Source: Deltaproteobacteria bacterium
GTDB taxonomy: Bacteria; UBA10199; JACPAL01; JACOUP01
Assembly: GCA_016177765.1 (NCBI GenBank)
Contig: JACOUP010000008.1
Coordinates: 563,021 to 627,020 of the forward strand
DNA length: 64,000 nt
Reading direction: 5' to 3'
Part shown: piece after piece, positions 5,039-58,396 of the stretch
Position numbering within the stretch: the stretch's first letter is position 1
Layout: every line of letters starts with the position of its first letter
Notes under the pieces: generated by a model
What the model was told of the DNA's origin: nothing
Database searches by the model: none
What the model saw: only the letters and a program-made list of their open reading frames with translations
Translations under genes and position numbers: made by a program

Positions 5039-5039
5039 C

Positions 5040-8601: not shown

Positions 8602-8605
8602 CTTT

Positions 8606-10345: not shown

Positions 10346-10346
10346 G

Positions 10347-11414
10347 TTGACAGATTTTTCCCTTCTTGAAAGGTTTATGGTGATGCAAAACTTAAACTGG
10401 ATCCAGTGGATTTATCCCCTCGTCTATCTTGTCAGCGGGCTTGTTGCCGGTGTTCTCTTTAAGAAGGTCGTGCTTGCAAGGTTCAAAAGATTTGCAGGCA
10501 CAACGCCGTGGGAAGGAGATGACATCATCGTTGGAGTCGCCGAAAGATTTTCCATCGCACTTTTTGCGGTCGGTGGTTTTTATCTGGCGTTTCTGTATCT
10601 TCCGATCCCATTGAAAATGGCGCCTCTTCTGCAGAAGGCCCTGCTCGTTTTGTCCATGTTTATTGTCACCCTGGCCTTGGCCAAAATAGCCGTCGGCCTT
10701 GTTGAACTGTACTCACGAAAAGGGAAAGGGGCTTTACCCTCCACATCCATCTTTACCAATTTGGCGCGGGTGGCCGTTCTGGCCATCGGAATTTTGGTCA
10801 TTCTGCAGTCACTCGGAATATCGATCACACCGATCCTCACGGCCTTGGGAGTTGGCGGTTTGGCGGTTGCCCTGGCGCTGCAAGAGACCTTGGCCAACCT
10901 CTTTGCGGGCCTTCATATCCTGGTTTCGCGACAGGTTCGACCCGGCGATTATGTTCAACTCGACTCGGGAGAGGCGGGTTATGTGACCGACATCAATTGG
11001 CGTAACACGACGATCCGGGCTCTTCCGAACAACATGATTATTGTCCCCAATGCCAAATTGGCCTCGACGATCATCACTAACTTTCACCAGCCGGAACAAG
11101 AAATGTCCTTTCTTGTCGAGGTGGGGGTCAGCTATGAGTCCGACCTAAAGCAGGTGGAACGTGTGACCATCGACGTTGCCAGAGAGGTGTTGAAAGAAGT
11201 GCAAGGGGGGGTGCCAGCGTTTGAACCCTTTATCCGTTATCACACCTTTGCGGATTTCAGCATTAATTTTACCGTCATCCTGCGGGCCAAGGAGTTCGTC
11301 GACCAGTACTTGATCAAGCACGAATTCGTCAAACGATTGCACGAGCGTTATCAAACAGAGAAAATCGAAATCCCGTTTCCGATCCGGACGGTTCATACGA
11401 AACAGATAGGATAG
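10347..11414 (+). CDS. MscS-family mechanosensitive channel
   Basis: Small-conductance mechanosensitive channel that releases solutes on hypo-osmotic shock. Four hydrophobic segments lie in the first 190 residues, followed by the pore helix TM3 region (GVGGLAVALALQETLANLFAGLHILVSRQ) and the cytoplasmic beta domain (PGDYVQLDSGEAGYVTDINWRNTTIRALPNN). The frame starts at TTG 10347; ATG 10377, preceded by GAAAGG, is a good alternative. It lies between GH15 and the trehalose-6-phosphate synthase with almost no spacing, consistent with an osmotic-stress operon. Confidence 0.93.
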   Translation: MTDFSLLERFMVMQNLNWIQWIYPLVYLVSGLVAGVLFKKVVLARFKRFAGTTPWEGDDIIVGVAERFSIALFAVGGFYLAFLYLPIPLKMAPLLQKALLVLSMFIVTLALAKIAVGLVELYSRKGKGALPSTSIFTNLARVAVLAIGILVILQSLGISITPILTALGVGGLAVALALQETLANLFAGLHILVSRQVRPGDYVQLDSGEAGYVTDINWRNTTIRALPNNMIIVPNAKLASTIITNFHQPEQEMSFLVEVGVSYESDLKQVERVTIDVAREVLKEVQGGVPAFEPFIRYHTFADFSINFTVILRAKEFVDQYLIKHEFVKRLHERYQTEKIEIPFPIRTVHTKQIG

Positions 11415-11421
11415 CGTACAA

Positions 11422-13665
11422 ATGATCTTTATGCAGAAGACTCTTGTCAAATTTCTTTTTCCGGTCGTCGGTGTTCTCTTTGTGGGGTTGATTCTCTTTT
11501 CCTATTTTCGGGTCACGCGGGAACGAACTCAATTGATCGACGATCTCGATCGTCGCGCCCGGGTGATCGCCAGGAGTCTCTCGGTCGGGGCGATGCGCGC
11601 CATCCGGAATCCACCAACACCCGATGAAGAAGACCTGGCAGAGAGACTTTCCGGACAAGGGAGGACCATGGGGATCATGGTCTGTGGTCTTGATGGAAAA
11701 CTGGTCGCTCGATCGGCCGCCCTTGCTGACCTCAAGGCCTGTGAAGACCCGGAAATACAAGAAGTCGTCACAGATCAGAAGGAAAAGGTACTCACGCGTG
11801 ATGAAAAAGGGATGATGCTTCATACCCTCATTTTTCCTCTTAAAATTCGATCAGGAGATTTTGTCGGTACGCTCGCTGTCGTTCACGAGGCCTCCTATAT
11901 TGACAAACGGGTCCTGTCTGCCATGACCTGGACCACTCTTACCCTGGCGATTCTGGCTATTTTCATCTCGGCACTCACCTATTTTCTGTCGCGGCGTTCT
12001 TTCCAGAGATCGGTGCAACAGGTCTTGTCTTGGATGAGGTCAGCAAAGGAACCGAGCGAATCTCTGCCTCTACCTACGGAATCTCTCTTAAAACCGGTCA
12101 CCCGCGAGGTAGAAAAATTGACGGCAAGGCTCCGTGCCGCCAAGGAGACGGCTCGCGATGTTTCTCAGGAGAAACAGGCAAATAACTTGTGGACGCCGGC
12201 CCGACTGAAGGCCCATGCCGTGACCCATTTCGGAGACAGGCCCTTCCTCGTCGTCTCCAACCGTGAACCGTACATGCATGTGAAAGAGCAAGGTCGGCAC
12301 AAGGTCATCATCCCGGCCAGCGGACTGGTAACTTCGCTGGATCCGGTACTTCGGGCAACCTCCGGCCTCTGGATCGCCCATGGGGCCGGAGATGGTGACC
12401 GCGACACGGTGGATCGGGAGGGAAAGGTTTTGGTTCCTCCCGAGTCACCCTGCTACACACTCAAGAGGATCTGGCTCTCGCGGGAGGAGGAAGAGGGGTA
12501 TTATTACGGATTCTCCAACGAGGCGCTCTGGCCCCTCTGCCATCTCACCAACTATCGCCCGGAATTTGAGGAAAAAGACTGGCAGACCTACCAGAAGGTC
12601 AACGAGAAATTCGCCGATGCCGTGGTCCGGGAATTCGGCAAAACGAGGCCGTTCATCCTGGTGCAAGATTATCATTTCACGCTATTGCCAAAGCTCATTC
12701 GGCAGCGGCGTCCCGATGCGATCATTGGCCTCTTCTGGCACATCCCTTGGCCGACACCGGAGATCTTTCAGGTCTGTCCCTGGAAGAGGGAGATTCTGGA
12801 AGGAATGCTTGGAGCGAACTTTGTCGGATTCCATCTCCAATCCTATTGCAACAATTTTTTTGACACGGTGAACAGTCTCCTGCCGGTCCGAATCGAGTGG
12901 GACCGTTTCGCGGTCCTCCATGACAAGGGGGCCACGCTTGTCAAACCATTCCCAATCAGCATTCAGCCATGGGCGGAGAGAAAGATTTCCACCGAGGAAG
13001 AGTTTCAGCAAAAGTCACTTGGCTTTAGGGAACAGTTGGAGCTTGGGACCACGCGGATCGTCGTGAGCGTCGACCGGCTGGATTACACCAAGGGGATCCC
13101 GGAACGGCTGGGGGCAATCGACCGATTCTTTGAGAAATATCCAGCCTATAAGACAAAAATCAGCTTTGTCCAGTTGGGCGCCCCCTCCAGAATCCACATT
13201 CCGCGCTATCGAGACTTTGTCACGGAGGTTGAGAAATTGGTCGATCAGGTTAATTGGAAGCATGCAGAAGGCGCTTGGAAACCGGTTATTTTTTTCAAGG
13301 AACACCATGACCCAAAGACCGTTTATACCTTTCTTCGGATGGCGGAAGTCTGCATCGTAAGCTCTTTGTCGGACGGCATGAATCTGGTGGCCAAGGAGTT
13401 CGTGGCGGCAAGGGAAAAGGGTGATGGAGTTCTTCTCCTTTCCGAGTTTGCTGGTGTCGCTCGCGAATTTCAGGAAGCTCTGCAATTTAACCCTTATGCC
13501 AAAACCGACTTCGCCGAGACAATTCGTATCGCCCTTGAGATACCTTTTGAAGAACAAAAGCGACGCATGGCCAGATTAAAAGTCTTGGTCGCTGAGAACA
13601 ATATCTATCGGTGGGCCGCTGATCTTTTGGGTGAATTGTCCCAGGCCTCACAAACAACCCCATAA
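11422..13665 (+). CDS. otsA: membrane-anchored sensor-trehalose-6-phosphate synthase fusion
   Basis: The C-terminal 470 residues are a GT20 trehalose-6-phosphate synthase: PFLVVSNREPY, LVQDYHFTLLPKLIR, FWHIPWPTPEIF, GFHLQSYCNNF, VDRLDYTKGIPERL and VSSLSDGMNLVAKEF are all present. The first 250 residues are unusual. TM1 is at about 9-29, then an extracytoplasmic domain of about 135 residues, TM2 at about 168-189, and a charged HAMP-like helix linker, the layout of a chemoreceptor or histidine kinase sensor. No trehalose-phosphate phosphatase gene is adjacent. Activity is probably set by an external signal at the membrane; that is inference from layout. Confidence 0.85.
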   Translation: MIFMQKTLVKFLFPVVGVLFVGLILFSYFRVTRERTQLIDDLDRRARVIARSLSVGAMRAIRNPPTPDEEDLAERLSGQGRTMGIMVCGLDGKLVARSAALADLKACEDPEIQEVVTDQKEKVLTRDEKGMMLHTLIFPLKIRSGDFVGTLAVVHEASYIDKRVLSAMTWTTLTLAILAIFISALTYFLSRRSFQRSVQQVLSWMRSAKEPSESLPLPTESLLKPVTREVEKLTARLRAAKETARDVSQEKQANNLWTPARLKAHAVTHFGDRPFLVVSNREPYMHVKEQGRHKVIIPASGLVTSLDPVLRATSGLWIAHGAGDGDRDTVDREGKVLVPPESPCYTLKRIWLSREEEEGYYYGFSNEALWPLCHLTNYRPEFEEKDWQTYQKVNEKFADAVVREFGKTRPFILVQDYHFTLLPKLIRQRRPDAIIGLFWHIPWPTPEIFQVCPWKREILEGMLGANFVGFHLQSYCNNFFDTVNSLLPVRIEWDRFAVLHDKGATLVKPFPISIQPWAERKISTEEEFQQKSLGFREQLELGTTRIVVSVDRLDYTKGIPERLGAIDRFFEKYPAYKTKISFVQLGAPSRIHIPRYRDFVTEVEKLVDQVNWKHAEGAWKPVIFFKEHHDPKTVYTFLRMAEVCIVSSLSDGMNLVAKEFVAAREKGDGVLLLSEFAGVAREFQEALQFNPYAKTDFAETIRIALEIPFEEQKRRMARLKVLVAENNIYRWAADLLGELSQASQTTP

Positions 13666-35389: not shown

Positions 35390-35402
35390 CCTAAAAATGA
35401 TA
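35390..35402. repeat. right 13-bp direct repeat flanking the DUF4143 ATPase gene
   Basis: CCTAAAAATGATA, overlapping the last codons and stop of the outer-membrane barrel gene. Its twin lies at 34080-34092. Confidence 0.5.
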
Positions 35403-35960
35403 CTGCACCGTTGCCCGAAAGAGCGGGGTGTAAAGATCCCCATCGGCGATATGGGCGTAGTTGAGCCCGAACTGGGGGGCTAGCGTAAACTGTTCCCCCA
35501 TCCAGAATTCATAACCGATCCCGGAATCGACCGTGAAGCCGCTGTAGTAGGTGGTCCCCGGCATTCCAACGGCGCCAAAGCTGGCGCCGGAGGTAACCCG
35601 CATCATCTCATACCCAAAACCGCTGTAGGCGTAGAGGCCATCGACAATAAAGTAAAGAAGGGTCGGGGTCACCGGGATGAAGGTATAATTCACACCGGCC
35701 CGGCTGGTAAAATAACCACCACTCTCCAGATGAAGGGCAAACTGATCACTAAACCGATAACCGAGTTGGCCGATCCCACCCCCTCCGACCCGCTGGATCG
35801 CATTCGCCTCGTAACCCAGGGCACCCCCCAGTCCGATATAAAAACCACTCCTCGGCTCGTAAGAATCTTCCGCCTGAACAAGACGGGTCGTGAGGGTTAC
35901 CAGAACTGCCGTTATTATTAAAAAAAGAAGCTGTTTTTTAGGCACCCTAACCTCTTTCAT
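35391..35960 (-). CDS. outer-membrane beta-barrel protein of the candidate peptide operon
   Basis: 189 aa with a signal peptide (LLFLIITAVLVTLTTRLVQA) and then a small eight-strand type barrel: GFYIGLGGALGYEANA, IGQLGYRFSDQFALHLESGGYF, a C-terminal ATVQYHF ending in Phe. Similar to OmpW/OmpX-like opacity barrels in layout. Its start overlaps the stop of the protease gene by 4 bases (ATGA), so it is translationally coupled to the candidate peptide-processing gene. It could be an exit or reception pore, but that is speculation from position. Confidence 0.75.
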   Translation of the reverse strand: MKEVRVPKKQLLFLIITAVLVTLTTRLVQAEDSYEPRSGFYIGLGGALGYEANAIQRVGGGGIGQLGYRFSDQFALHLESGGYFTSRAGVNYTFIPVTPTLLYFIVDGLYAYSGFGYEMMRVTSGASFGAVGMPGTTYYSGFTVDSGIGYEFWMGEQFTLAPQFGLNYAHIADGDLYTPLFRATVQYHF

Positions 35961-37840
35961 CCTCTAAAAAACCGGTACAAAAAATAAAGGAAGCTCCCTA
36001 AAACGATATAATAAAAGATAATGAGAAAACCATAAAATAACTCCGGAAAATGGTGTGCCAAAAGAGAGGGTTTCCAAAAAGAGCGGAACAAATCCTTCTT
36101 AAACCATCTGAAGGATTGCTGCCTCAAATGAGGTCGTTCAAAGAGGTCCGACAAAATATAATACCCGTCATAATCAAGGGTGGGGTTTAGATTGAGGAGG
36201 ACCACAAGATAGGAAATCAGGGCAAAGAACCAGCAAGAAATCTTGACAAGAGGGGCCGCCCAAAAAACCCCGACGACCATCACAAGACCAACCACAACAA
36301 GATTGGTATAAACCCCCGCAACGCCCACACGAATCCGGGGCCACTTGGGGGCCAGCCACATATCGGAGGTATCAACAAAAACGATCGGCCCGACCCAATA
36401 CCACCCCAGACCGACACCAAGGACCTCCCGACCAAATGCCTTGGTGGTAAAGGCATGACCCGCCTCATGGATGACGATACTCAGAAGATAGAGAGGCCAG
36501 AGGGCAAGGACCAGAGAGAAAGTCGCCCTCTCGTTCAAAAAAGGCCGGAGCGGCCCCGCCTCTCCCACAAAGGCAACCAATCCAAAAACAGCCACCAGGG
36601 TTAGTAAAAAAGGAACCGGCTTTCGGTAACATTGATTCATCCCCCGCCGGTAAAAAACCGTGATCAACCGATCCACACCCCTGATCAGGTATCGCCACTC
36701 AAAAAAGTTTTTCAGCCGAACCAACCCTTGATACAATCTTGGGTGATGACGGGTCATCTTCAGAACACCGTAACGGAGGGTACGGCTTTCCGCAAAACCG
36801 GCGGTCACCAGGGAGGTGATAATATCGGTCACTCCCTGAGGAGAAAAGGTTTTAAAGGTTCTGAAATAATCGATAATAATATCTTTTAAATTGTGATTCC
36901 CATCCAGCCGCTCCCAAACAAACCATCCCTCCGGTGAAAGTTTAAAATAGGCCCCTCTTTTTGGATCCTTGAGAATAATCACCTTTTCCCCTTGATCCGT
37001 TTTCCTCTTTTCGATCTGAACATTGTCAATCCGGCGGGGACGGTCCCTGAGTCTCAAAAGATCGACCATCTGGGAGGCGACCTTCCAATCGGCCCCCATG
37101 ACCTCTAAAAGATCGGATCGTTTGAGAATAAAAAGTTCACAGGGTTGAAGAGAACGGATTGTGGCATTCCGTGGCGAATCAGAGAGAATCGCTGCCTCGC
37201 CAAAGAGGGCACCCGCCTCCAGGGTGGCCAGCTGACGCGATGATCGAAAACTCTCGTTCACAATGACTTCTACACGACCTGACTGAATGAGAAAACAACA
37301 ATCTCCCCTTTCCCCCTGACGGATGATCTCTTTTTCGGCAGGCACAGAGAGTTTTTCCAAACGTGAGGCCAACAATTCCAATCGCCTCGCTTCCAATGTC
37401 GTAAATGGGGTCGCCTGTTTCAGAAATTTGATGATGAGAAGTTTTTCTGCCACGGCCTTTAACTTTTCTTGAGTCTCAGGAAAGCTGGCGATGACTGTCG
37501 CGAAAACAGGTCCAGCCAAGGTCAAGGCTTTCAGAGGAGTGACCGCAACGATGCTCGCCGATCGGCGGCTACCGGGGTGGAGAAGGGCAATCTCACCAAA
37601 GAGTTCTCCCTCCCCCAAGGTTGCCAAAACGATCGGGCCGGTCTCCCCTTCCGTTTGGACCTCGGCCCGTCCCTCCGTAACAAGGTATAGCTTGTCACCG
37701 ATATCCCCTTCCCGGATGACGACCGAATCGGCCGCAAACGACTCTTCCTCAAGGTGAACTGCTAACTCTTCCAACACAACGCGAGGAAGCGTTGCAAAGG
37801 GAGGCAGCCTTGACAGTATTCTGATACGATCTTCTTCCAA
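35957..37840 (-). CDS. cNMP-binding / PqqD-like / M50 membrane metalloprotease
   Basis: 627 aa in one chain. Cyclic-nucleotide-binding domain 1 is at about 13-125, with phosphate-cassette residues FGE and RSA intact (GELFGEIALLHPGSRRSASI). Domain 2 is at about 135-260 (ALFGEAAILSDSPRNATI). A PqqD-like RiPP recognition element lies at about 272-355: VIILKDPKRGAYFKLSPEG, VWERLDG, IIIDYF, ITSLVTAGF. The M50 site-2 protease core follows, with HEAGH at 458-462 and NPTLDYDGYYILSD at 552-565, the signature of the peptide zinc metalloprotease (YydH-like) group, plus about six membrane helices. The start is a TTG at 37840 without a clear Shine-Dalgarno. It likely cleaves or exports the adjacent 66-aa peptide under cAMP/cGMP control (inference). 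Confidence 0.85.
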   Translation of the reverse strand: MEEDRIRILSRLPPFATLPRVVLEELAVHLEEESFAADSVVIREGDIGDKLYLVTEGRAEVQTEGETGPIVLATLGEGELFGEIALLHPGSRRSASIVAVTPLKALTLAGPVFATVIASFPETQEKLKAVAEKLLIIKFLKQATPFTTLEARRLELLASRLEKLSVPAEKEIIRQGERGDCCFLIQSGRVEVIVNESFRSSRQLATLEAGALFGEAAILSDSPRNATIRSLQPCELFILKRSDLLEVMGADWKVASQMVDLLRLRDRPRRIDNVQIEKRKTDQGEKVIILKDPKRGAYFKLSPEGWFVWERLDGNHNLKDIIIDYFRTFKTFSPQGVTDIITSLVTAGFAESRTLRYGVLKMTRHHPRLYQGLVRLKNFFEWRYLIRGVDRLITVFYRRGMNQCYRKPVPFLLTLVAVFGLVAFVGEAGPLRPFLNERATFSLVLALWPLYLLSIVIHEAGHAFTTKAFGREVLGVGLGWYWVGPIVFVDTSDMWLAPKWPRIRVGVAGVYTNLVVVGLVMVVGVFWAAPLVKISCWFFALISYLVVLLNLNPTLDYDGYYILSDLFERPHLRQQSFRWFKKDLFRSFWKPSLLAHHFPELFYGFLIIFYYIVLGSFLYFLYRFFRG

Positions 37841-37855
37841 TATTTTTGGGACCGC

Positions 37856-38056
37856 TTACATCCCTTTGGTGATACGTGTCTTTAATTCCTCGTCCGTCAT
37901 CCGCCAATCGATCCCGCGAAGGGTAGCCCATTCCTCTGGAGAAAGCTCAAGCCCGCTTCGGCGAACCGTCTTTTCCGCATCCTCCCTCAAGGCCTTCCTG
38001 AAACCGGCATCGTTCAACCACTTGTCAACCAACTTCCCCACTGCTTCATAACTCAT
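37856..38056 (-). CDS. candidate RiPP precursor peptide (NHLP/Os1348-like leader), 66 aa
   Basis: Short acidic-helical peptide: AVGKLVDKWLNDAGFRKAL, then REDAEKTVRRSGLELSPEEW. This pattern (D..FR..L, then gL.Ls.eEw..L) matches what I recall of Nif11/NHLP-clan, Os1348-type leader sequences. The C-terminal stretch from GIDWRMTDEELK to ITKGM would be the core; it contains Trp51 but no Gly-Gly and no Cys. It overlaps the prenyl-synthetase-like gene by 4 bases and is followed after 15 bases by the PqqD/M50 protease. An unusually perfect Shine-Dalgarno implies much higher expression than its neighbours. If it is not a precursor, it could be a small regulatory helix peptide. Confidence 0.6.
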   Translation of the reverse strand: MSYEAVGKLVDKWLNDAGFRKALREDAEKTVRRSGLELSPEEWATLRGIDWRMTDEELKTRITKGM

Positions 38057-39090
38057 GACATCACCTCCTTTGGTTGATGAAAAAATGAAATGGCATGAAT
38101 CACTTCACGCAAATAATGAGCGGCCGGTTCAAGAGGCCTGGCCTTTTCAAGTGATCGAAGGGCCCGTTGACAATACAACTCTACAATAAACGCGGAAAAC
38201 CGGAGGGCCCCCGTTTGATGAAGAAACCGGCGGATCTGCTCGTGAAGGGACAGATCACTCATGCCCTGTTCTAAAATTTTCAAAAATTCCAGGCGATCCT
38301 TACCCCCCTTTTTGCCAAGACAATAAGCAATCGGAAAAGTACGGGTCCCGTTTTTCAGGTCGCGACTAAATGGGGCCTGAAAGAGGTCATAACAATCCGA
38401 GGCAAGCTGACTGGCGACTCCCAAAAAACAGCCCATCTCCTCGTAATTTTTAATCTCCTCCGGATTCGCCCCTGCCATTTCCGCCGCCAGCGCGGCAAAA
38501 ATGGCCGCTTCTGCCCCACTCTTCCCAACAAGAGAAGACTCTACCTCCTCCAAGCCAACCCGAGGAGATCCTGTCATGGCGAGATCCTGACTTTGCCCTT
38601 CGCTCATCCGGAGGAGTCCTCGGGCCAGCCTTTTTTGCAATCGCCATTGCTTTTCCGGAGAAACCGCAAATTCCGAAAGAATAAGGGAGGGGAGCGTTGA
38701 GAGGAGGGTCAGCGCAAAGAGGTTAATCTCCGACTCCGTGTACCCTTTCCAATCAGGAGAGAGATCATGGTCGGCCAGGTCATCCAGGAGGTCAATCCCC
38801 AAAAAGAGAATTGTCGTTAAAGCTGGCAGACAATCAGCCGACTGTTCCTCTCCACGGATCGCCCCGGTCACCAAAAGAGGCAGGTCGATAAAGGGGGTAA
38901 ACGGGTCTTGGGTTGTATCCTCCGCCAACCTCGCCAAGCCGATCTCCACCAAGGAACATTGCCGGTGAGAAGTAAGGTGTCTTAGGGCCAAGGCAAGGGC
39001 CTTGTCCAAAACCAGTCTTCGAGCCGATGGAACAGGCTCTCCCGCATAGGCCAGATTACCCGAGAGGCTCATCAACGGCGGGCATAACAA
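38053..39090 (-). CDS. polyprenyl-synthetase superfamily protein (ComQ-like candidate)
   Basis: 345 aa, all helical (ATG at 39072, MSLSGNLAY, is an alternative start). The first Asp-rich motif is LLDDLADHD (D103, D104, D107), and GQSQDL (about 165-170) matches the conserved GQxxDL of polyprenyl synthases. VGKSGAEAAIFAAL resembles the KTG helix. The second Asp site is reduced to SDCYD (D232, D235), followed by RDLKNGTRTFPIAY, like the K/R-TLP-Y segment of ComQ and GGPP synthases. It could make a C15-C20 diphosphate, or, like ComQ, attach an isoprenyl group to the adjacent peptide. The operon position next to a Trp-containing peptide favours the latter as a hypothesis. Confidence 0.75.
   Translation of the reverse strand: MLCPPLMSLSGNLAYAGEPVPSARRLVLDKALALALRHLTSHRQCSLVEIGLARLAEDTTQDPFTPFIDLPLLVTGAIRGEEQSADCLPALTTILFLGIDLLDDLADHDLSPDWKGYTESEINLFALTLLSTLPSLILSEFAVSPEKQWRLQKRLARGLLRMSEGQSQDLAMTGSPRVGLEEVESSLVGKSGAEAAIFAALAAEMAGANPEEIKNYEEMGCFLGVASQLASDCYDLFQAPFSRDLKNGTRTFPIAYCLGKKGGKDRLEFLKILEQGMSDLSLHEQIRRFLHQTGALRFSAFIVELYCQRALRSLEKARPLEPAAHYLREVIHAISFFHQPKEVMS
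38062..38071 (-). promoter_or_regulatory. near-perfect Shine-Dalgarno for the 66-aa peptide
   Basis: Minus strand AAAGGAGGTGATG, an almost full complement to the 16S rRNA 3' end, with AGGAGG ending 7-8 bases before the ATG at 38056. It lies inside the last codons of the upstream gene (Gln-Pro-Lys-Glu-Val-Met). Confidence 0.85.
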
Positions 39091-39138: not shown

Positions 39139-40389
39139 ATGAAGGTCCTCCTGAAAATCGCGATACGAAATCTCTTTCGTAACAAGAAAAGATCCCTCAT
39201 TACCATGCTCGCCGTCAGTATCGGCCTGGGGGCCTTGATCTTTTTAAGAAGTTTTATTTTCGGCGCCCAGAATCAGATGGTGGGTAACGTCATCAACACC
39301 TTAACCGGCGATATCCAAATCCTCCCCACGGGCCAGGAAAACATCTACAACACCAACGGGGCCATCGAAAACCCCGAAACGATCCGTCAACTGTTGAAAA
39401 ACGACCCCCGCGTTCTCCATTTTGCGGAAGAGGTGGGGGCCAGCGGCATCGCCGCCTCGGCTACCGCTTCTCTCCCGACGTTTGCCTCCGGGTATAACCC
39501 CAACGACGAGGCCTCTACAGAATTCAGGATCCCTATCATTCAGGGGCGCCGCCTGACGACGGCCGATGACTACGGCATTGTGATCGGTGAGAAGATGCGC
39601 AAGATCCTTGAGATTGAAATCGGCGACAAGGTTGTTGTCACCTTTCAAGATTACCACGGCGGCCTTGCCGGCGAGGCCTTTAAACTGACCGGCACCTTTG
39701 AGACAGGAAACGATCAGATCGACAACGGCAATGTCCTGCTCCTCCGGCCGACCCTGCAAAGATTACTCGGCTTCGAGCACCGCATTTCGAAATTCATCCT
39801 AAAAATCGATCCTCACTATCAACCCGACGAACTGGCAAAAGATTTCAGGAAGAAAATTCAAGAAATGGAGGCGGACGCAAGCCCCTATCAAGGAACCAGC
39901 CTTTCAGTCATGACCTGGGAGGAGATACTTCCCCTGATTGCCCAGATGATCCGGTTCCAGAACGGGATGATTCTTGTGATTGTCTTTATCGTCCTCACCG
40001 TGGTCACCACAGGAATCTTGAACACATTGATGATGTCCATTACCGAAAGGACAAGGGAGTTCGGTCTGATGGCCGCTCTCGGAACATCCCCTTCCGCCGT
40101 AATGATGGTTGTGACCCTGGAATCATTCTTCCTCACTACGGCGGGGGCCTTGGCCGGCATTCTCTTCGGCATCGGATTCACCTTCTATTTCGGCCATGTC
40201 GGTATTGACCTCTCCCGTTTTCTCTCTACCGTTTCCAATCTCCTCATCGGCTCCCATGTTTATCCAAGACTGGATATCTCCTCGCTCCTCCTCTTTTTGG
40301 GAATTGTGACGGGGGGGAATCTCGTCGTCTCCCTTCAACCGGCCTGGAGGGCTTCACGCCTCCAACCAGTTGAGGCAATGAGGGTATGA
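39139..40389 (+). CDS. ABC transporter permease, LolC/E-MacB (FtsX) type, copy 1
   Basis: 416 aa. It starts with the cytoplasmic signature IAIRNLFRNKKRSLITMLAVSIGLGALIF leading into TM1, then a large periplasmic MacB/Lol-type domain (about 45-270) and three C-terminal helices with GILNTLMMSITERTREFGLMAALG and a final PAWRASRLQPVEAMRV. It works with the second permease at 41862 and the ATPase at 41179. The two permeases are clearly paralogous (shared ENIYN-NGAIENPE and TFETGNDQIDNG). Likely extracts lipoproteins or other lipidic cargo from the inner membrane. Confidence 0.9.
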   Translation: MKVLLKIAIRNLFRNKKRSLITMLAVSIGLGALIFLRSFIFGAQNQMVGNVINTLTGDIQILPTGQENIYNTNGAIENPETIRQLLKNDPRVLHFAEEVGASGIAASATASLPTFASGYNPNDEASTEFRIPIIQGRRLTTADDYGIVIGEKMRKILEIEIGDKVVVTFQDYHGGLAGEAFKLTGTFETGNDQIDNGNVLLLRPTLQRLLGFEHRISKFILKIDPHYQPDELAKDFRKKIQEMEADASPYQGTSLSVMTWEEILPLIAQMIRFQNGMILVIVFIVLTVVTTGILNTLMMSITERTREFGLMAALGTSPSAVMMVVTLESFFLTTAGALAGILFGIGFTFYFGHVGIDLSRFLSTVSNLLIGSHVYPRLDISSLLLFLGIVTGGNLVVSLQPAWRASRLQPVEAMRV

Positions 40390-40393
40390 GGCT

Positions 40394-41182
40394 ATGAGAA
40401 AACCCACTTTCATCCTCTTCCTCTTTCTGGCCCTGCCGCTTGCCTCACCCGCCGAAAATTCACCCAGGGGTGTGCCACCCAAGGGCGCTTCGCCCAGGGA
40501 GATTGTGGCGCACACGATTAACCTCCTCCGGGGTCATTCCAACGTCGCCCTGTATGAAGTGGAGATTGTAAACCCCCGCTGGAGGCGGCGTCTCAAACTC
40601 AAGGCGTGGGATAAACGGATGGAGAAAAAGGTCTTTGTGCGGATTCTGGAACCGGCCAAGGATGAAGGAACCGGCTTCTTAAGGATCGATTACAACCTCT
40701 GGATGTACCTTCCCTCCACCGAAAAGGTGATGAAGATCCCACCCTCTATGATGCTCCAGCCTTGGATGGGAAGCGATTTTACCAATGACGATCTGGTCAA
40801 GGAATCGAGCTACATTGATGATTACGATCACACCCTGGAAGGGGTAGAAACCAAAGAGGGCGAAGCTCTCTGGCGAATCCGTCTCGACCCCAAACCCCAT
40901 GCCCCCGTCGTCTGGGGCAAGGTTTTCTTTTGGATTCGCAAGGCCGATTTTATCCCTCTCCGCCAGGCCTTCTATGATGAAAGGGGCCGTCTCATCAAAA
41001 ACCTTGAGTTCAGCGAGGTCAAGAAGATGGGAGGGACCACCCTCCCGTCGGTCTGGAGGATGGAGTCGGTGAACAAAGAGGGGCATTACACAACCCTGAC
41101 GTTGAAAGAGATCCAGTTCAATCCCCTCGAAGGAATCCGTGATGAAATCTTCACGGAGAAACAGCTCAGGAGGTCCCATTGA
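40394..41182 (+). CDS. LolA-like outer-membrane lipoprotein-sorting protein
   Basis: 262 aa with signal peptide (FILFLFLALPLASPAEN) and a LolA/LolB-like half-barrel: VALYEVEIVNPRWRRRLKLKAWD, KVFVRILEPAKDEGTGFLRID, LWMYLPSTEKVMKIPPSMM, MGSDFTNDDLV. This is the uncharacterised LolA-like group that accompanies FtsX-type permeases. It probably receives hydrophobic cargo from the ABC complex. Immediately after the signal peptide, two palindromic units encode SPRGVPPKGASPRE, placed at the mature N-terminus where they are harmless to the fold. Confidence 0.85.
   Translation: MRKPTFILFLFLALPLASPAENSPRGVPPKGASPREIVAHTINLLRGHSNVALYEVEIVNPRWRRRLKLKAWDKRMEKKVFVRILEPAKDEGTGFLRIDYNLWMYLPSTEKVMKIPPSMMLQPWMGSDFTNDDLVKESSYIDDYDHTLEGVETKEGEALWRIRLDPKPHAPVVWGKVFFWIRKADFIPLRQAFYDERGRLIKNLEFSEVKKMGGTTLPSVWRMESVNKEGHYTTLTLKEIQFNPLEGIRDEIFTEKQLRRSH
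40459..40500. repeat. two palindromic units in the LolA-like gene
   Basis: GGGTG-TGC-CACCC followed by GGGCG-CTT-CGCCC, with AAG/AGG linkers. The T-A to C-G stem change in the second unit is compensated. In frame. Confidence 0.85.
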
Positions 41183-41865
41183 ATAGGCCCCAGATCGAAT
41201 TAACCGGCGCCAGCAAGATTTACCAGAATAACGGTCTTGCGGTCCGGGCCTTGTCAGGCATCAATCTAAAAATCGAGGGGGGTGAATTCATGGTCCTGGC
41301 AGGCCCCTCAGGGTCCGGAAAATCAACCCTGCTCCACCTGATCGGGGCCCTCGATCAGCCCTCGGAAGGGAGCATCACGATCGCCGGTCAGGATCTTGCC
41401 CGTCTCTCGCGCACGGAACTGGCCCTCTTCCGCCTGCACAAGGTCGGTTTTGTCTTTCAATCCTTCAACCTCATCCCGGTCCTGTCGGCCCGTGAAAATA
41501 TCGAATACCCCCTTCTCCTCCAGGGGATTGATAGAAAAGAGAGGGGGTCCCGCATCGAGGACCTTTTGGCCCGCGTCGGTCTCTCCGACCAGGCGGGCAA
41601 GCGACCGGGCGAGATGAGCGGCGGCCAGCAACAACGGGTCGCGATCGCCCGAGCCCTGGCTACCCGTCCCGAGATTGTCCTCGCGGATGAGCCGACAGCC
41701 AACCTCGACTCCCAAACAGGGATCCAACTAATCCAGCTCTTTCGTGAATTGAACGAATTCTTCAAGACAACCTTCCTTTTCGCCTCGCACGACCCGAACG
41801 TCATCGAGCGGGCCAGGAGGATTATCCGCCTGAAAGACGGCCGGGTGCTGGGAGAAGGGGCGTGA
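41179..41865 (+). CDS. ABC transporter ATP-binding protein, LolD/MacB type
   Basis: 228 aa. Walker A is GPSGSGKSTLLHL, the Q-loop region is VGFVFQSFNLIPVLSARENIEYPLLLQG, the signature is MSGGQQQRVAIARAL, Walker B is IVLADEPTANLD, and the switch His is in FASHD. It starts with TTG at 41179 preceded by AGGAGG, overlapping the LolA-like gene stop by 4 bases, and overlaps the second permease by 4. ATPase of the two-permease complex. Confidence 0.95.
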   Translation: MNRPQIELTGASKIYQNNGLAVRALSGINLKIEGGEFMVLAGPSGSGKSTLLHLIGALDQPSEGSITIAGQDLARLSRTELALFRLHKVGFVFQSFNLIPVLSARENIEYPLLLQGIDRKERGSRIEDLLARVGLSDQAGKRPGEMSGGQQQRVAIARALATRPEIVLADEPTANLDSQTGIQLIQLFRELNEFFKTTFLFASHDPNVIERARRIIRLKDGRVLGEGA

Positions 41866-43103
41866 AATTTTTTTTATCAATCGCCCTCAGGAACCTCCTC
41901 CGCAACAAGAAGAGATCCCTCATCACCCTGACGGCGATTACCTTCGGACTGGGGGCCCTGATCTTTCTGCGCGGGTTCATCTACGGGGCCCAGCAACAGA
42001 TGATCGAAAATGTCTCCACCACATTGACCAGCGACGCCCAGATCGTTCCCAAGGCGCTGGAAAACATCTACAACGCCAATGGGGCGATTGAAAACCCCGA
42101 GGCGATCCGCAAAATCCTGCACCAGGATCCCCGCATCGCCGCCTTCTCCGAACGGATCATCGGTGCCGGCATGGTCTCCTCCGACAAGGGTGTGACACCC
42201 AGGGAGTCGATGATGACCTACCTGGTCGGATTCGACCCGGACCAGGAAACCGCGCTTGGCAGCCAGCGCGGGCTTGTTCAGGGCCGGACCCTCACCGCCG
42301 AAGACCAGGAAGGGGTCGCCTTGGGGGAGAAGATGCGCAAGATCCTGAAGATCAACATTGGCGACAAGATTACGGTGATCGCCCAGGATTATTACGGCTC
42401 CCTCGCCGGTGGTTCCTATCAACTTCTGGGAACATTCGAAACCGGCAACGACCAGATTGATAACGGGACCGTCATGATGCTCCTCCCCTCCGCCCAAAAG
42501 CTCCTTTCGTTGGAGCAGCGGATCTCCAAATTTGCCCTCAGGATTCAAAAACCGTTCAAGATAGAAGAGGTTGTTGCCGACCTGAGAGAGAAGGTCTCGG
42601 CTGAGGGTCTGTCCATCCTCACCTGGGAAGAGCTGATCCCGATGATCGCCCAGATGATCCGGTTTCAAAATGGGATGATTCTGGTTGTGGTCCTGATTGT
42701 TCTCACCGTCGTCGCCGCAGGGATTTTAAATACCTTGATGATGTCGATCATCGAACGGACGCGGGAGTTCGGCCTCGTGATGTCGCTCGGCACCAAGCCA
42801 TCTCAGGTGATGCTGATGATCGCCCTCGAATCTTTCCTGATGACAGCCTTTGGTTCCCTCCTGGGGATTGGTCTCGGCGCGGCGGCCACCCTCTACGCCG
42901 GTCATACCGGCATCAACCTCTCCCGTTTCGTACAAGCGCTGTCCAATCTCCTGATCGGCTCCCATGTTTATCCCCGGATCGACTGGGCCTATCTTTTCCT
43001 TTTTGTCGGCGTCGTGATGGTCTCGAATATCCTGGTCTCCCTTTACCCGGCCTGGAGGGCTTCACGCCTGGAGCCCATCGAGGCAATGAGGCAAGCAGGG
43101 TAA
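41862..43103 (+). CDS. ABC transporter permease, LolC/E-MacB (FtsX) type, copy 2
   Basis: 413 aa paralogue of the 39139 permease, with the same layout: IALRNLLRNKKRSLITLTAITFGLGALIF, periplasmic domain, GILNTLMMSIIERTREFGLVMSLG and PAWRASRLEPIEAMRQAG. GTG start at 41862 in the overlap with the ATPase stop. The pair probably forms a heterodimeric permease, as LolC/LolE do. One palindromic unit encodes KGVTPRE in a loop of the periplasmic domain. Confidence 0.9.
   Translation: MKFFLSIALRNLLRNKKRSLITLTAITFGLGALIFLRGFIYGAQQQMIENVSTTLTSDAQIVPKALENIYNANGAIENPEAIRKILHQDPRIAAFSERIIGAGMVSSDKGVTPRESMMTYLVGFDPDQETALGSQRGLVQGRTLTAEDQEGVALGEKMRKILKINIGDKITVIAQDYYGSLAGGSYQLLGTFETGNDQIDNGTVMMLLPSAQKLLSLEQRISKFALRIQKPFKIEEVVADLREKVSAEGLSILTWEELIPMIAQMIRFQNGMILVVVLIVLTVVAAGILNTLMMSIIERTREFGLVMSLGTKPSQVMLMIALESFLMTAFGSLLGIGLGAAATLYAGHTGINLSRFVQALSNLLIGSHVYPRIDWAYLFLFVGVVMVSNILVSLYPAWRASRLEPIEAMRQAG
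42185..42206. repeat. single palindromic unit in the second permease gene
   Basis: GGGTG-TGA-CACCC with AAG before and AGG after. In frame (Lys-Gly-Val-Thr-Pro-Arg). The paralogous permease at 39139 has no such unit at the equivalent point, so this is a clean occupied/empty comparison. Confidence 0.75.
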
Positions 43104-44263
43104 TGAAAAAAGTATTCCTTCTTTTTTGCCTTCTTTCACTCCCGGCCCACGCCTTTTCACTCTACGACAACGATTCCCTCTCTCTCGGATTAAAAGGGTA
43201 TTATAAAAACCTCTTCGTCACCTCCAAGCGAGCCGCTACCGGAAACTGGTATTGGGGAGATATCAACCGGCTCCGAACGGAATGGGACACCCGCTTTTTT
43301 AAAAACTTTTCCACAAAACTGATCTGGGACAACGAGGTCATCGGCGGTGGTTATGTCAACACCGAAGAATTCGCCCAGAGACAAACACAGAGGAATGAAC
43401 CGTATTTGAATCTTGACTACGAAATTTCCAGAAAAAAGAATTTCTTTTATGGCCAGCAATTCTACCGGGCTTATGCCAAACTGGAGACGGAACCAGTCAC
43501 CCTGACCGTTGGCCGGCAGAAGGTGGATTGGGGGGTGATGCGGCTGGTCAGTCCTGCCGATCTTTTCACACCGCTTGCCCTCTTTGGTGTTGAGCCGGAA
43601 GAACGGGTCGGTGTGGATGCGATCAATCTTTCCTGGGCGATCACCCCCACCTTGAAATTAAATCCGGCCTACACCCTTAATTCCAATTTTGACCGTTCCC
43701 GCACAGGGGCCCGCCTCACCAAGACCGTTGGTCACTTCGATCTTTCGTTACTCGGGGGACGGTTTCTCAAAGACACCGTTGTGGGGGCCGATATTTCGGG
43801 AGATATTGGAAATGCCGGGATCCGGGGAGAGTTTCTCTACGACAGGGCCGCCATTGAAAATCATTTCATTCAATTGGCCCTCGGTGCCGATTATGGGTTT
43901 CAAAATGGCCTTACGGTAGCCCTTGAATATTTTATGAATGGGCAATTCTTCCTCAGCAACCCGGCCACCGATCCTGTTACCGGGAACATCGTTTTTCGTG
44001 AAACGGCCAATCAGATAAAAACAGTGAAAACTCAGTTCATCAGTCTTCAGGCCAAGTACGACCTGACCCCTCTCTGGGTTCTCCGGATGGAAAATATTGT
44101 TGACCTGGAGGGAGCCAGCACCTTCCTGCGCCCAGAAACAAAATATTCCCTCTTTTCCTGGATGGATTTTTCTGTTGGTGCCCTCCTCCCGTTTGGAAAA
44201 ACCGGGGGGGAATTTTCGGCGATCCCGAAATTGTACTACGCCCAGGTACAGCTATTTTTTTGA
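43103..44263 (+). CDS. outer-membrane beta-barrel protein (porin/DUF1302-like)
   Basis: 386 aa with a signal peptide (VFLLFCLLSLPAHAFS) and alternating amphipathic strands: LSLGLKGYYKNLFVTSK, INRLRTEWDTRFFKNFSTKLIWDNEV, VTLTVGRQKVDWGVMRLVSPADLF, and a final YAQVQLFF ending in Phe. The start shares one base with the permease stop (TAATG). It is the outer-membrane partner of the ABC/LolA-like system by position. Its 3' end overlaps convergent nfo by 12 bases. Confidence 0.82.
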   Translation: MKKVFLLFCLLSLPAHAFSLYDNDSLSLGLKGYYKNLFVTSKRAATGNWYWGDINRLRTEWDTRFFKNFSTKLIWDNEVIGGGYVNTEEFAQRQTQRNEPYLNLDYEISRKKNFFYGQQFYRAYAKLETEPVTLTVGRQKVDWGVMRLVSPADLFTPLALFGVEPEERVGVDAINLSWAITPTLKLNPAYTLNSNFDRSRTGARLTKTVGHFDLSLLGGRFLKDTVVGADISGDIGNAGIRGEFLYDRAAIENHFIQLALGADYGFQNGLTVALEYFMNGQFFLSNPATDPVTGNIVFRETANQIKTVKTQFISLQAKYDLTPLWVLRMENIVDLEGASTFLRPETKYSLFSWMDFSVGALLPFGKTGGEFSAIPKLYYAQVQLFF

Positions 44264-55336: not shown

Positions 55337-57346
55337 CTAGGCACAGCGTTGGACAAAAAACTGCGAAGGGCCATCTTCGGGGACTTCCTGGAGACAACGC
55401 TGGAACAGGGCCTTTGCTGGAGCAAGACGCCCCTCGCGGAAGGTCGCCAACGCCTCCTGATAAAGAGGCAGGAGACGGAGAACCTCCGAAGGAGGATCGA
55501 CCAAAAGCTCATAAATCCTGACCCACTCTTTCTTCCCGCGTACCTGCACCTCATCGATTTCCCGAAACGGAAAACGCTCCTTCGCCTTTTCATAGGTGGC
55601 TGGTCCCACAAGAATGGAGGTCCCATAGACCTTGTTCAACGCCTCAAGCCGCGAGGCGAGATTCACCGAATCCCCAAGGACCGTATAATCAAACCGATGG
55701 GTGGAACCGATATTCCCCGCGGTCACAACCCCCGTGTTCAGACCAACCCCTACCCGAAGGAGGGGGATCTGAAACTGTCTCTGCCAGATCTTTCCCTTCT
55801 CCCTCACCAACCGGATGAGCGCCGCCGCCGAATCACAAGCCCGCTCGGCATGATCAACCACCGGTAGAGGAGAACCAAATACCGCCATCACCGCGTCCCC
55901 GATATACTTGTCCAAGAGCCCTTTTCGCTCGAGAATAAGATCAGTGGCCGGTGTCAGGTAACTATTGAGGAACTCCACCAAGACCTCAGGCGGCGTTGCC
56001 TCGACAAGGGAGGTAAAATTACGGATGTCCGCAAAAAAGACGGTGAGTTCCTTTCTCTCCCCCCCCAAGCGGATCTTTTCCGGGTGATCCGAGAGTTCGC
56101 GAATAACGTCACGTGAAAGATAGTGTTCAAAGGTCTCGCTGATAAACCTCTTTTTCTTTTCCTGAACCAGGTAATCGTAAAGGGAAAGACCCCCGTAACT
56201 CAAGACGGTCGAAAAGAACGGATAGATATTCTGCAAAACTAATCCTTTTTGAACAAAAAGAAAATGGATGACCCCCCATTGAGCCAGCAAAACCCCCAAA
56301 AAGATAAAAAAGTCGGCGATCGGACGCAAACGGGGAATGAGCAGTCCCAACACAAACGCGGGAATAAGGATCAAAAGCCATGAAAGCCGATCGGTCACCC
56401 GGTCCCGCCTTAGGAAATCCTCCCGAAGCAGGTTGTCGATCGTATTGGCCTGAAGGAGGGTTGAGGCCATCAATGGATCAAGGGGGGTCGGCCGGTTGTC
56501 TTCGAGACCCGCCGCCATCGCCCCGACGAGCACCACCTTACCCTTAAGCGAGAGGGAACGGTTTTCCCCCTTTAAGAGATCGACGGCACTGATCCTGGAA
56601 AAACCATTCCCTCGAAAGTTGATCAGAAACTCCCCTTGAGGAGTCAGCGGAAGTTTTTGCAGCCAAGAGGGACCATCATCACCCAGAACCGTGAGCGCCG
56701 CCTGAAGAGAAAGAGAAGGAAAAAAGTGATCCCGGTAACGGATCACGAGAGAGGTCTGCCGGACTGTTCCATCGGTGTCGTTCAAAAAGTTGAAAAAACC
56801 CTGCCTTTCACCACCCGGGAGGTCGGCAAAGAGGGGGAGGACCCCCTGGAGACCGATCGCCTCCTTCAGATGCGGCCAGGGAGGAATATTTTTCAATGTG
56901 GACTGCCGGATATTTTCGAAGGAAAGAGGATCTTCTCTCTGTTCGATCCCCTTTTCCTTCATCTCCTCATCGGTCATCAGAAAAAAGTAGCCGACCACAA
57001 TCTCGGGATAACGGCGAAGGGTGCGTGAAAGGAGGATATCTTCCGGGTTCCCTGAAGGTTCCGAGAAAAAAATGTCGGGGACGATGACCTTGGCCCCTTG
57101 ATCCACCAATTTTTCAAAGAGACGCGCCAGCAGGCCCCTGGGCCATGGCCATCGACCGAGCGCCTCAAGGCTCTTTTCATCAATGGAAACGATCACCACC
57201 TGATCGGTAGGGTTGAGGGGGCCTCTCAGGGTAAAATGGAGGTCGTAAAATTTTCTTTCCATGACCTCAAAGGGATGAGGACGAACGAAAGAAAGAAGGA
57301 GCGCAAAAAGCGTAAACCCCAGGGCAAGGAGGTAGAATCGCCGCAT
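55337..57346 (-). CDS. CHASE2-domain class III adenylate/guanylate cyclase
   Basis: 669 aa. TM1 at the N-terminus (LLALGFTLFALLLSFV), an extracytoplasmic CHASE2 domain (about 25-300) with VVIVSIDEKSLEALGRWPWPR, and three membrane helices (about 310-390). A catalytic cyclase domain (about 430-620) follows with metal Asp in FFADIRNFTSL, LLDKYIGDAVMAVFGSP, and the substrate-binding stretch YTVLGDSVNLASRLEALN. The short C-terminus has a TPR-like stretch. It makes cAMP (more likely) or cGMP in response to an outside signal. The cNMP-binding protease at 36-38 kb is a possible receiver of the product. Confidence 0.93.
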   Translation of the reverse strand: MRRFYLLALGFTLFALLLSFVRPHPFEVMERKFYDLHFTLRGPLNPTDQVVIVSIDEKSLEALGRWPWPRGLLARLFEKLVDQGAKVIVPDIFFSEPSGNPEDILLSRTLRRYPEIVVGYFFLMTDEEMKEKGIEQREDPLSFENIRQSTLKNIPPWPHLKEAIGLQGVLPLFADLPGGERQGFFNFLNDTDGTVRQTSLVIRYRDHFFPSLSLQAALTVLGDDGPSWLQKLPLTPQGEFLINFRGNGFSRISAVDLLKGENRSLSLKGKVVLVGAMAAGLEDNRPTPLDPLMASTLLQANTIDNLLREDFLRRDRVTDRLSWLLILIPAFVLGLLIPRLRPIADFFIFLGVLLAQWGVIHFLFVQKGLVLQNIYPFFSTVLSYGGLSLYDYLVQEKKKRFISETFEHYLSRDVIRELSDHPEKIRLGGERKELTVFFADIRNFTSLVEATPPEVLVEFLNSYLTPATDLILERKGLLDKYIGDAVMAVFGSPLPVVDHAERACDSAAALIRLVREKGKIWQRQFQIPLLRVGVGLNTGVVTAGNIGSTHRFDYTVLGDSVNLASRLEALNKVYGTSILVGPATYEKAKERFPFREIDEVQVRGKKEWVRIYELLVDPPSEVLRLLPLYQEALATFREGRLAPAKALFQRCLQEVPEDGPSQFFVQRCA

Positions 57347-57394: not shown

Positions 57395-58396
57395 ATGGAA
57401 AAAGCAATCTCTTCGCCTCAGGCTGGAAAAGTAGCCCTTGTTTCCGCTACACTTCTCCTCCTTGGAGGAATCACCTTTTCACTCACCGAAGGGTGTGGCG
57501 GTTCGGTGGTCCGGGGCGCTGATCGGACTATCACCGGGACACTCGCCAGTAGCTCTCTTGCCACTTCCCCACTCCCGATCAAGTCGCAGGTTGTCGCCTG
57601 TTCCAATCTCAGTATCGTTTGTATCAGCTACAACGGAGGCGAAATTACCGGGACGGTCGATGATCTTTGTACGTTTGCAATGACCTTGACGATCGACACT
57701 GTTTTCTTTTGCTCGTTAGTGACCAAGGACTCCGCCGCCTACCTGGGCCTTTTTGGTTGTGAAGAAAGTGGAGGGGTGGCTGGGGGTCTTCCCATCTTTC
57801 AATCCCCCGATGGCGACACGGATGGGATTGACGCAGACACAGTATCCCTGACCAGTGGAAAGATTGTCGCCAACAATATCTGCAAGGATACGGACCAGGA
57901 TGGGGATGGCCAAAGTGATTTTGACGATACCGATGATGATGGGGATAATATCGCTGACGATAAAGACACCTTTGATCAGACCGGTTGTACCGCCGCGGAC
58001 AGTTACGACAGCAACGCCAACGGCGTCCCGGATATCTTTGAAACAATCTGGGGAACTCTGCCCGATCAGGACAACGATAATATCCCCAATTTTTGTGACA
58101 ACGATCTGGATGGCGACGGGGAGACGAACGACAAGGATACCGATGATGATAATGATGGAACGCCCGATGATACGGATACGGATGCCAATGCCGACGGATT
58201 GGACGATAACCTCGATGCCGATGACGATGGAATGGCCGATTCGGAAGAACAACAACAAACCTGTGAACTGGCCAAATGTGCCAACGACTTTCAGTGCCAG
58301 CTTTATGCCGATGATACCTTGGGTGACGACGACCCAACCAATGATATCGGGACCGATAATATCAAGTGCAGCAGTGGTTGTTGTATGAAGATGTAA
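57395..58396 (+). CDS. acidic thrombospondin type 3-like calcium-binding repeat lipoprotein
   Basis: 333 aa. The N-terminal hydrophobic segment (VALVSATLLLLGGITFSLTEGC) is a probable signal, possibly with lipidated Cys. The second half is Asp/Asn-rich (DTDQDGDGQSDFDDTDDDGDN, DNDLDGDGETNDKDTDDD), typical calcium-binding TSP3/dockerin-like repeats. Six or more cysteines sit near the N- and C-termini (CANDFQCQ, CSSGCCMKM). Probably surface exposed and structural; binding partners are unknown. It is divergent from the cyclase. Confidence 0.8.
   Translation: MEKAISSPQAGKVALVSATLLLLGGITFSLTEGCGGSVVRGADRTITGTLASSSLATSPLPIKSQVVACSNLSIVCISYNGGEITGTVDDLCTFAMTLTIDTVFFCSLVTKDSAAYLGLFGCEESGGVAGGLPIFQSPDGDTDGIDADTVSLTSGKIVANNICKDTDQDGDGQSDFDDTDDDGDNIADDKDTFDQTGCTAADSYDSNANGVPDIFETIWGTLPDQDNDNIPNFCDNDLDGDGETNDKDTDDDNDGTPDDTDTDANADGLDDNLDADDDGMADSEEQQQTCELAKCANDFQCQLYADDTLGDDDPTNDIGTDNIKCSSGCCMKM

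Follow-up and report, generated by a model that had tools for sequence, protein, structure and literature searches.

The locus described here lies in the window, a stretch of 64,000 nucleotides from a Deltaproteobacteria bacterium of the lineage UBA10199 (contig JACOUP010000008.1, positions 563,021 to 627,020), whose genome of 1.92 Mb is 96.5% complete and whose phylum is represented by 46 genomes. Four minus-strand open reading frames (ORFs) stand head to tail at 35391-39090, in the order PPS, an isoprenoid-synthase-fold protein; PEP, a short precursor peptide; M50, a fusion protein carrying an M50 protease domain; and a small outer-membrane barrel. PPS and PEP overlap by ATGA at 38053-38056, PEP and M50 are separated by 15 bases (37841-37855), and M50 overlaps the barrel gene at 35957-35960, all as an earlier sequence-only reading of this DNA had described. 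The first three genes almost certainly form a functional unit, with the following features.

38053..39090, minus strand: PPS, 345 aa, a protein with the fold of trans-isoprenyl-diphosphate synthases (trans-IDS), proposed peptide prenyltransferase (PF00348; AlphaFold2; Foldseek; motif comparison)
38061..38070, minus strand: strong Shine-Dalgarno sequence of the PEP gene, AAGGAGGTGA (from the sequence)
37856..38056, minus strand: PEP, a 66-aa precursor of the Os1348/NHLP (nitrile hydratase-like leader peptide) type, with leader residues 1-50 and tail residues 51-66 starting from Trp51 (NF038399; profile match to 6lk7; 21 homologues aligned)
37904..37906, minus strand: codon of Trp51, the first residue past the Os1348-homologous part and the putative prenylation site
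35957..37840, minus strand: M50, a 627-aa fusion of two cyclic-nucleotide (cNMP)-binding domains, a recognition element for ribosomally synthesised and post-translationally modified peptides (RiPP recognition element, RRE) and an M50 domain, proposed leader-binding membrane protease (PF00027 twice, PF02163, weak PF05402; conserved alignment)
37091..37744, minus strand: the two cNMP-binding domains, bounds approximate (PF00027 twice; FGE...R.A)
36791..37051, minus strand: PqqD-like RRE domain, residues 264-350, β3-α3 (AlphaFold2; Foldseek matches TfuB1, TbiB1, TruD and PqqD)
36455..36469, minus strand: HEAGH zinc motif, residues 458-462, at the end of a hydrophobic segment (alignment, hydrophobicity)
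36158..36193, minus strand: NLNPTLDYDGYY, the second zinc/active-site motif of the M50 domain, from residue 550 (alignment)

PPS, PEP and M50 occur together at five places in the 46-genome phylum, namely in the window and in L032 (genome G030), L033 (G002), L034 (G028) and L035 (G029), where L and G are our labels for loci and genomes. They do so again in three Elusimicrobia genomes (L043, L089 and L093), and this recurrence within the phylum and in a second one makes the arrangement more than chance. The conserved neighbourhood and the peptide homologues beside PqqD/M50 genes, both proposed as checks by the sequence-only reading, are thus found. L043 contains three PEPs, PPS and M50, the gene order in L093 is PEP, PPS, PEP, PEP, M50, and one Elusimicrobia genome, G047, has two PPS/PEP loci (L044 and L089) and a third, L090, with PEP and M50 only. 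Tandem precursors number four in both L033 and L044 and three in both L043 and L093.

Within the window's phylum, five of the six genomes with a full-length-type M50 also carry PPS (hypergeometric probability 0.0018). The Elusimicrobia relatives of PPS were found by a contig scan with one peptide pattern around the first Asp-rich motif (FARM), and relatives in other phyla may be missed. Among 246-248 sampled genomes of Elusimicrobiota, PPS (E<=1e-15) and the full M50 fusion (E<=1e-60), searched with queries built without Elusimicrobia sequences, were confined to the same two genomes; the probability that two random genome pairs coincide is 3.3e-5. The PEP profile used on these genomes included the Elusimicrobia peptides themselves, and only its negatives are informative. 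A plasmid search with the fusion gave no match. In gene trees of PPS and of M50, the Elusimicrobia members are nested inside the diversity of the other phylum, which suggests that the gene set was transferred between phyla; G029 groups with G047a in both trees (support 100/99 for M50 and 88/85 for PPS), and several forks are weak.

PEP belongs to the Os1348/NHLP-clan precursors, matching NF038399 (Os1348 family, NHLP clan) at 62.6 bits against a cut-off of 40, which bears out its earlier description as a leader-like peptide. Over residues 3-50, a profile built from 21 PEPs matches 6lk7, the crystal structure of Os1348 (E 2.3e-6); it also matches the nitrile hydratase alpha chains, from which NHLP leaders originated. 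Trp51 is kept in 20 of the 21 aligned peptides, within a tail whose consensus is IDWxLxDEELxxRxSK. Strong Shine-Dalgarno sequences are present on most precursor genes and lacking from the majority of PPS and M50 genes, a pattern that fits excess production of the precursor.

PPS scores 41.2 bits against PF00348 (polyprenyl_synt; cut-off 27) and carries the two motifs first reported for it, DDLAD at residues 103-107, which is the FARM, and GQSQDL, together with a pseudo-second Asp-rich motif (SARM), SDCYD, at residues 231-235. The AlphaFold2 model has the trans-IDS fold (pLDDT 85.9); Foldseek with this model returned geranylgeranyl diphosphate synthases first and the Trp farnesyltransferase Ord1 within the top 50. 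Motifs were compared with the canonical synthase of the same genome (L030 1066-1950) and with paralogues from the phylum. The whole PPS family retains DDxxD of the FARM, GQ..D/E, K190, Q228, D232 and DLxxGTR(T/S)xP, and has lost GGKRxRP, the His before the FARM and the RRG after it; the first SARM Asp is replaced by Ser or Thr throughout, and an invariant Asp100 has been gained just before the FARM. The residues lost bind isopentenyl diphosphate (IPP), and those kept bind the allylic diphosphate and Mg2+. Judged by these motifs, PPS has kept the allylic-diphosphate/Mg site and lost the IPP-binding motifs of canonical synthases. An isoprenoid synthase fold (here predicted), an intact FARM and a lost or repurposed IPP site are likewise combined in the trans-IDS-like Trp prenyltransferases of the ComQ/PalQ kind. 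Searches of NCBIfam and Pfam gave no ComQ match for PPS.

Other names for PPS fit less well. A housekeeping polyprenyl diphosphate synthase is unlikely, since the genome has its own canonical synthase and PPS is without the IPP motifs. The name family 2 encapsulin polyprenyl transferase is unwarranted at 59.4 against 450 bits. A link to family 2B encapsulins, in which a cNMP-domain shell is paired with a polyprenyl-transferase cargo, was also set aside: the NF041163 match is limited to the cNMP domain (85 against 400 bits), and among the translated ORFs surrounding the set no HK97-type shell gene was recognised. In one genome (G027; L041 467-1336, minus strand) PPS is without some 55-60 residues around DLxxGTR, owing to an internal deletion or an assembly error, and in L089 a gene overlapping PPS (4233-5249, minus strand) has a weak match to the squalene-hopene-cyclase C-terminal/alpha-alpha toroid family PF13243 (22.2 bits, below cut-off).

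In the fusion, both cNMP domains (132 bits) keep the phosphate-binding-cassette pattern FGE...R.A. The RRE segment matches PF05402 (PqqD) at 21.5 bits, below the cut-off of 23.4, and a comparison of its sequence alone with solved structures returned no significant hit; its structure was therefore predicted. The AlphaFold2 model of residues 264-368 (pLDDT 83.8) shows strands at model positions 12-17, 23-29 and 34-38 followed by helices at 40-48, 55-66 and 71-83, the β3-α3 winged-helix fold of PqqD and the lasso B1 proteins. Its best Foldseek matches are themselves RREs, comprising the lasso B1 proteins TfuB1 and TbiB1, TruD, PqqD (5sxy) and sactipeptide enzymes; the E-values are modest (best match TfuB1, E 2.4e-3, probability 1.00) and the match set is coherent. 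The PqqD-like element postulated by the sequence-only reading is therefore sub-threshold by sequence and holds as a predicted fold over residues 264-350. We consider it very probable that this domain binds the PEP leader.

The protease part scores 29.9 bits against PF02163 (cut-off 27.2) and has the HExxH and NxxPxxxxDG motifs in hydrophobic segments, as in M50/site-2 proteases; both are intact in the window and in L032, L033, L035, L043, L089 and L093. Site-2-protease-type metalloproteases also act in the maturation of other RiPPs, namely the M50 proteases of daptides and epipeptides (YydH/LiaK) and TmcP of TMcins. Among NCBIfam models, the fusion matches the daptide protease family NF041824 best (E 6.6e-31); however, it scores far below the cut-offs of such families (107.8 against 300 bits for NF041824; 54.7 against 225 bits), and the matches cover the M50 part only, leaving the cNMP and RRE domains uncovered, so that the name daptide protease is unwarranted. 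We consider cleavage of PEP by the M50 domain somewhat more likely than not.

Relatives of the cNMP part were seen elsewhere. In L084 (G020; 8325-10016 and 10013-11926, both minus strand) the gene of a degenerate cNMP-RRE-M50 homologue, which has QELGH and lacks the DG motif, overlaps that of a CHASE2 nucleotide cyclase; no PPS or PEP lies nearby. This suggests a cyclase-coupled, non-proteolytic relative, and hints that the cNMP domains respond to a cyclase. The window itself has a CHASE2 protein with a class III adenylate/guanylate cyclase domain (55337-57346, minus strand), encoded 16 kb from the operon; this enzyme might supply the cyclic nucleotide that the fusion would sense. A stand-alone double cNMP protein resembling the N-terminus of the fusion is encoded in L086 (5957-6727, plus strand), about 3.6 kb from a LolA-like cassette in G030.

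The fourth gene and the divergent neighbours of the operon are as follows.

35391..35960, minus strand: small outer-membrane barrel, 189 aa, overlapping the M50 gene (PF13505, 24.6 bits, below the cut-off of 28.7)
39139..40389, plus strand: MacB/FtsX-type ATP-binding cassette (ABC) permease 1, divergent, its start 48 bases from that of PPS (PF12704, 60.3 bits; PF02687, 48.3 bits)
40394..41182, plus strand: LolA-like outer-membrane-lipoprotein-sorting protein (PF17131, 190.5 bits, cut-off 30)
41179..41865, plus strand: LolD/MacB-type ATPase (PF00005, 124 bits; 68% to L034, 53% to L093)
41862..43103, plus strand: MacB/FtsX-type ABC permease 2 (55-60% to the L034 permeases, 31% to L093)
43103..44263, plus strand: outer-membrane porin-like protein of the cassette, with no confident Pfam match (48-52% to proteins in the same cassette position of L034, L035 and L110)

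The barrel had been counted as a member of the system, and we considered it as a possible exporter. Its homologues are scattered in the phylum as a generic outer-membrane protein family and stand next to PPS, PEP or M50 in none of the related loci, and we have dropped it from both roles. A likelier exporter is the adjoining cassette, left out of the sequence-only reading, which holds the components of LolCDE/MacB-type export (FtsX/MacB permeases, ATPase and LolA-like carrier; PF12704, PF02687, PF00005 and PF17131 all above cut-off). A MacB/LolCDE-type ABC transporter adjoins the set in the window, L034, L035 and L093, in three different relative arrangements, and is accompanied by a LolA-like and an outer-membrane protein in the loci of the phylum (window, L034 and L035). 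Homologues of permease 1 adjoin the set in L034 (55%) and L093 (31%), and the LolA-like gene does so in G028 and G029 too. In the window, PPS, PEP and M50 precede the cassette, whereas those of L034 and L035 sit within the homologous cassette, with the LolA-like gene on one side and the ATPase gene on the other; in the Elusimicrobia locus L093, the homologous permease and ATPase (53%) run divergently, some 60 bases from the set. A functional link between cassette and set is likely but not certain. In L044, a DevB/DevC-like exporter was read by eye upstream.

Reading of the flanking ORFs revealed no RiPP-modifying enzyme other than PPS, which leaves it as the sole candidate modifier. All characterised trans-IDS-like prenyltransferases act on Trp, with the SARM repurposed for the acceptor (2026 review, PMC13290415); in the ComQ/PalQ kind, the glutamine before the SARM and the first SARM Asp are expected near the indole NH, and in PalX, an NHLP precursor, a conserved Trp is the residue that PalQ prenylates (PMC10853753). 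With this precedent, the loss of the IPP site and the conserved Trp51, prenylation of PEP by PPS, raised earlier as a possibility, is strengthened: it probably takes place, and the chances that Trp51 is the site are about even.

We propose that PPS, PEP and the fusion form a ribosomal-peptide maturation operon. PPS would transfer a prenyl group, supplied by the cell's own farnesyl diphosphate-type synthase, to PEP, most likely at Trp51, and the lipid would anchor the peptide at the inner membrane. PEP contains no hydrophobic segment that could bring it to a membrane protease; prenylation would do so. The RRE of the fusion would then bind the leader and the M50 domain would cut PEP at the membrane, under the control of a cyclic nucleotide bound to the N-terminal domains. 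The lipidated tail would be taken up by the neighbouring MacB/LolCDE-type ABC transporter, handed on by the LolA-like protein and brought to or across the outer membrane. This last step is possible, at somewhat less than even odds; the account as a whole, from prenylation through RRE-guided processing to Lol-like export, we regard as evenly poised.

A second locus variant and several other observations weigh against parts of this account. The loci L036-L039 and L041 have no M50; beside PPS they encode a PEP-like peptide that is shorter than PEP and ends in -GM, together with a Cys-rich, secreted protein resembling a lipoprotein. In L040, PPS is paired with a lipoprotein of this sort and no PEP was recognised. 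These lipoprotein-like proteins (L036-L041) have CPGG near the start, and several have C..DFQCQLFADD...GCC repeats. Trp51 is missing in the variant peptides of L036, L037 and L039 and displaced in that of L038, so that PPS either has another acceptor there or the assignment of Trp51 is wrong; this is the main weak point. One of the three L043 peptides is also without Trp51, and the PEP tail is as conserved as the leader, which is unusual for a variable core. Q228, invariant in the PPS family, is found in canonical synthases too, and PPS has Ser/Thr in place of the first SARM Asp, a residue implicated in indole binding (PMC13290415). The M50 domains of L034 (10577-11926, plus strand) and L090 (7732-9075, plus strand) have HDxxH for HExxH, which makes proteolysis doubtful in those copies, and cleavage may not be universal. 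The Lol-like cassette occurs without the set in G019, G026 and elsewhere in G030, and the sets of L032, L033 and L043 are not flanked by a LolA-like or other cassette gene. Separately, the window encodes a lipoprotein-like protein (57395-58396, plus strand) whose CANDFQCQLYADD...CSSGCC repeat also occurs in the lipoproteins that accompany PPS in the second variant.

These points leave room for other readings. PPS may instead produce a small molecule that derives from a prenyl group and stays free of the peptide (such as a signal or terpene), or a lipid destined for export, with the peptide as a carrier or regulator that the RRE-M50 protein processes. The complete FARM and the loss of the IPP site would also fit a terpene-synthase-like role, the conserved PEP tail resembles a functional helix more than a variable product, and the squalene-cyclase-type match of the gene overlapping PPS in L089 points the same way; yet PPS is coupled to a precursor everywhere except L040, precursors are multiplied in tandem beside it, and no cyclase or oxidase is common to the loci. 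We consider this rather unlikely.

It is less probable still that the peptide is a stable regulatory subunit binding PPS and the RRE, with M50 acting on another membrane substrate or as a non-proteolytic escort. Os1348 itself has been studied as a small folded protein (PMC7726476), and both the equal conservation of tail and leader and the M50 copies with HDxxH (L034 and L090) or QELGH (L084) would suit such a role, against which stand the one to four tandem precursor copies with strong Shine-Dalgarno sequences mostly on their genes, an RRE domain typical of leader binding, and the intact HExxH and DG motifs in the window and most other copies. That a prenylated, processed peptide takes another way out or is retained in the inner membrane, the cassette being its neighbour by chance or ancestral synteny, is the least probable of the three: the cassettes without the set, the sets without a cassette and the membership of the window, G028 and G029 in one order favour it, but the adjacency recurs in L093 of another phylum and the trio of L034 and L035 sits inside the cassette, unlike that of the window.

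Parts of the proposed prenylation and processing pathway resemble known systems. The PalX/PalQ pair of Paenibacillus alvei (PMC10853753) combines an NHLP-type precursor, whose leader improves PalQ activity, with an enzyme of the isoprenoid synthase superfamily, and is a direct precedent for the first step, making its kind already known. PalQ, however, groups in a sequence cluster of its own and requires the Trp to be C-terminal, whereas Trp51 is internal, 15 residues from the C-terminus, and the pal cluster has a histidine kinase and neither an RRE-M50 protein nor a Lol-like exporter. ComX/ComQ of Bacillus likewise sets a trans-IDS-like enzyme with a FARM and an altered SARM beside a short precursor with an internal Trp; ComX, unlike PEP, is not described as an NHLP/Os1348 peptide and serves Gram-positive quorum sensing, and its protease is described as unknown (PMC10853753). 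The Os1348 cluster of Pseudomonas sp. Os17 (PMC7726476) shares the precursor family (NF038399/PF14407) and has a metallopeptidase and a transporter nearby, but its modifying genes encode a GNAT, a gluzincin-like protein and a SagB-type dehydrogenase, with no prenyl-synthase-like gene. The NHLM/bacteriocin-type cNMP proteins (TIGR03896) also bind cyclic nucleotides and are annotated with bacteriocin-type transport; the fusion reaches 57 bits, far below their cut-off of 161, and they are without the RRE-M50 fusion. Diacylglycerol RiPPs (DAG-RiPPs; PMC12636315) are lipidated and use lipoprotein machinery; they carry diacylglycerol on Cys by way of a signal peptide, in contrast to the prenyl-synthase-like gene and RRE-M50 fusion here.

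No description of this gene set was found in the literature searched, a coverage that leaves out subscription journals and most preprints. The sequence-only reading knew of no system already described with exactly these genes; the pairing of an NHLP precursor with a trans-IDS-like prenyltransferase is known from PalX/PalQ, and for the architecture that includes the cNMP-RRE-M50 fusion and a Lol-like cassette our searches turned up no description. We speculate that it could represent a distinct class of prenylated ribosomal peptides in uncultivated Gram-negative phyla, in which isoprenylation would turn an Os1348-type precursor into a substrate of a cyclic-nucleotide-switched intramembrane RRE-M50 protease, with a dedicated Lol-like machine taking the prenyl-peptide on to the outer membrane, a prenyl counterpart of lipoprotein sorting; in this full form the proposal is rather unlikely.

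Peptide prenyltransferases of the isoprenyl-synthase fold are known from a handful of cases (ComQ, PalQ and ChrPC). The family signature LGxD(L/I)(L/I)DDxxD...(S/T)DxxDL...DLxxGTR(T/S)xP offers a handle for mining peptide prenyltransferases hidden among proteins annotated as polyprenyl synthetases. If our reading of PPS is true, two uncultivated groups would contribute a deep and divergent branch of such enzymes, equipped with a leader-binding membrane protease of its own and with a plausible exporter, and a single operon would allow the whole path from precursor to outer membrane to be tested. Should the Lol-like step hold, prenyl-peptides would use a lipoprotein-type sorting route.

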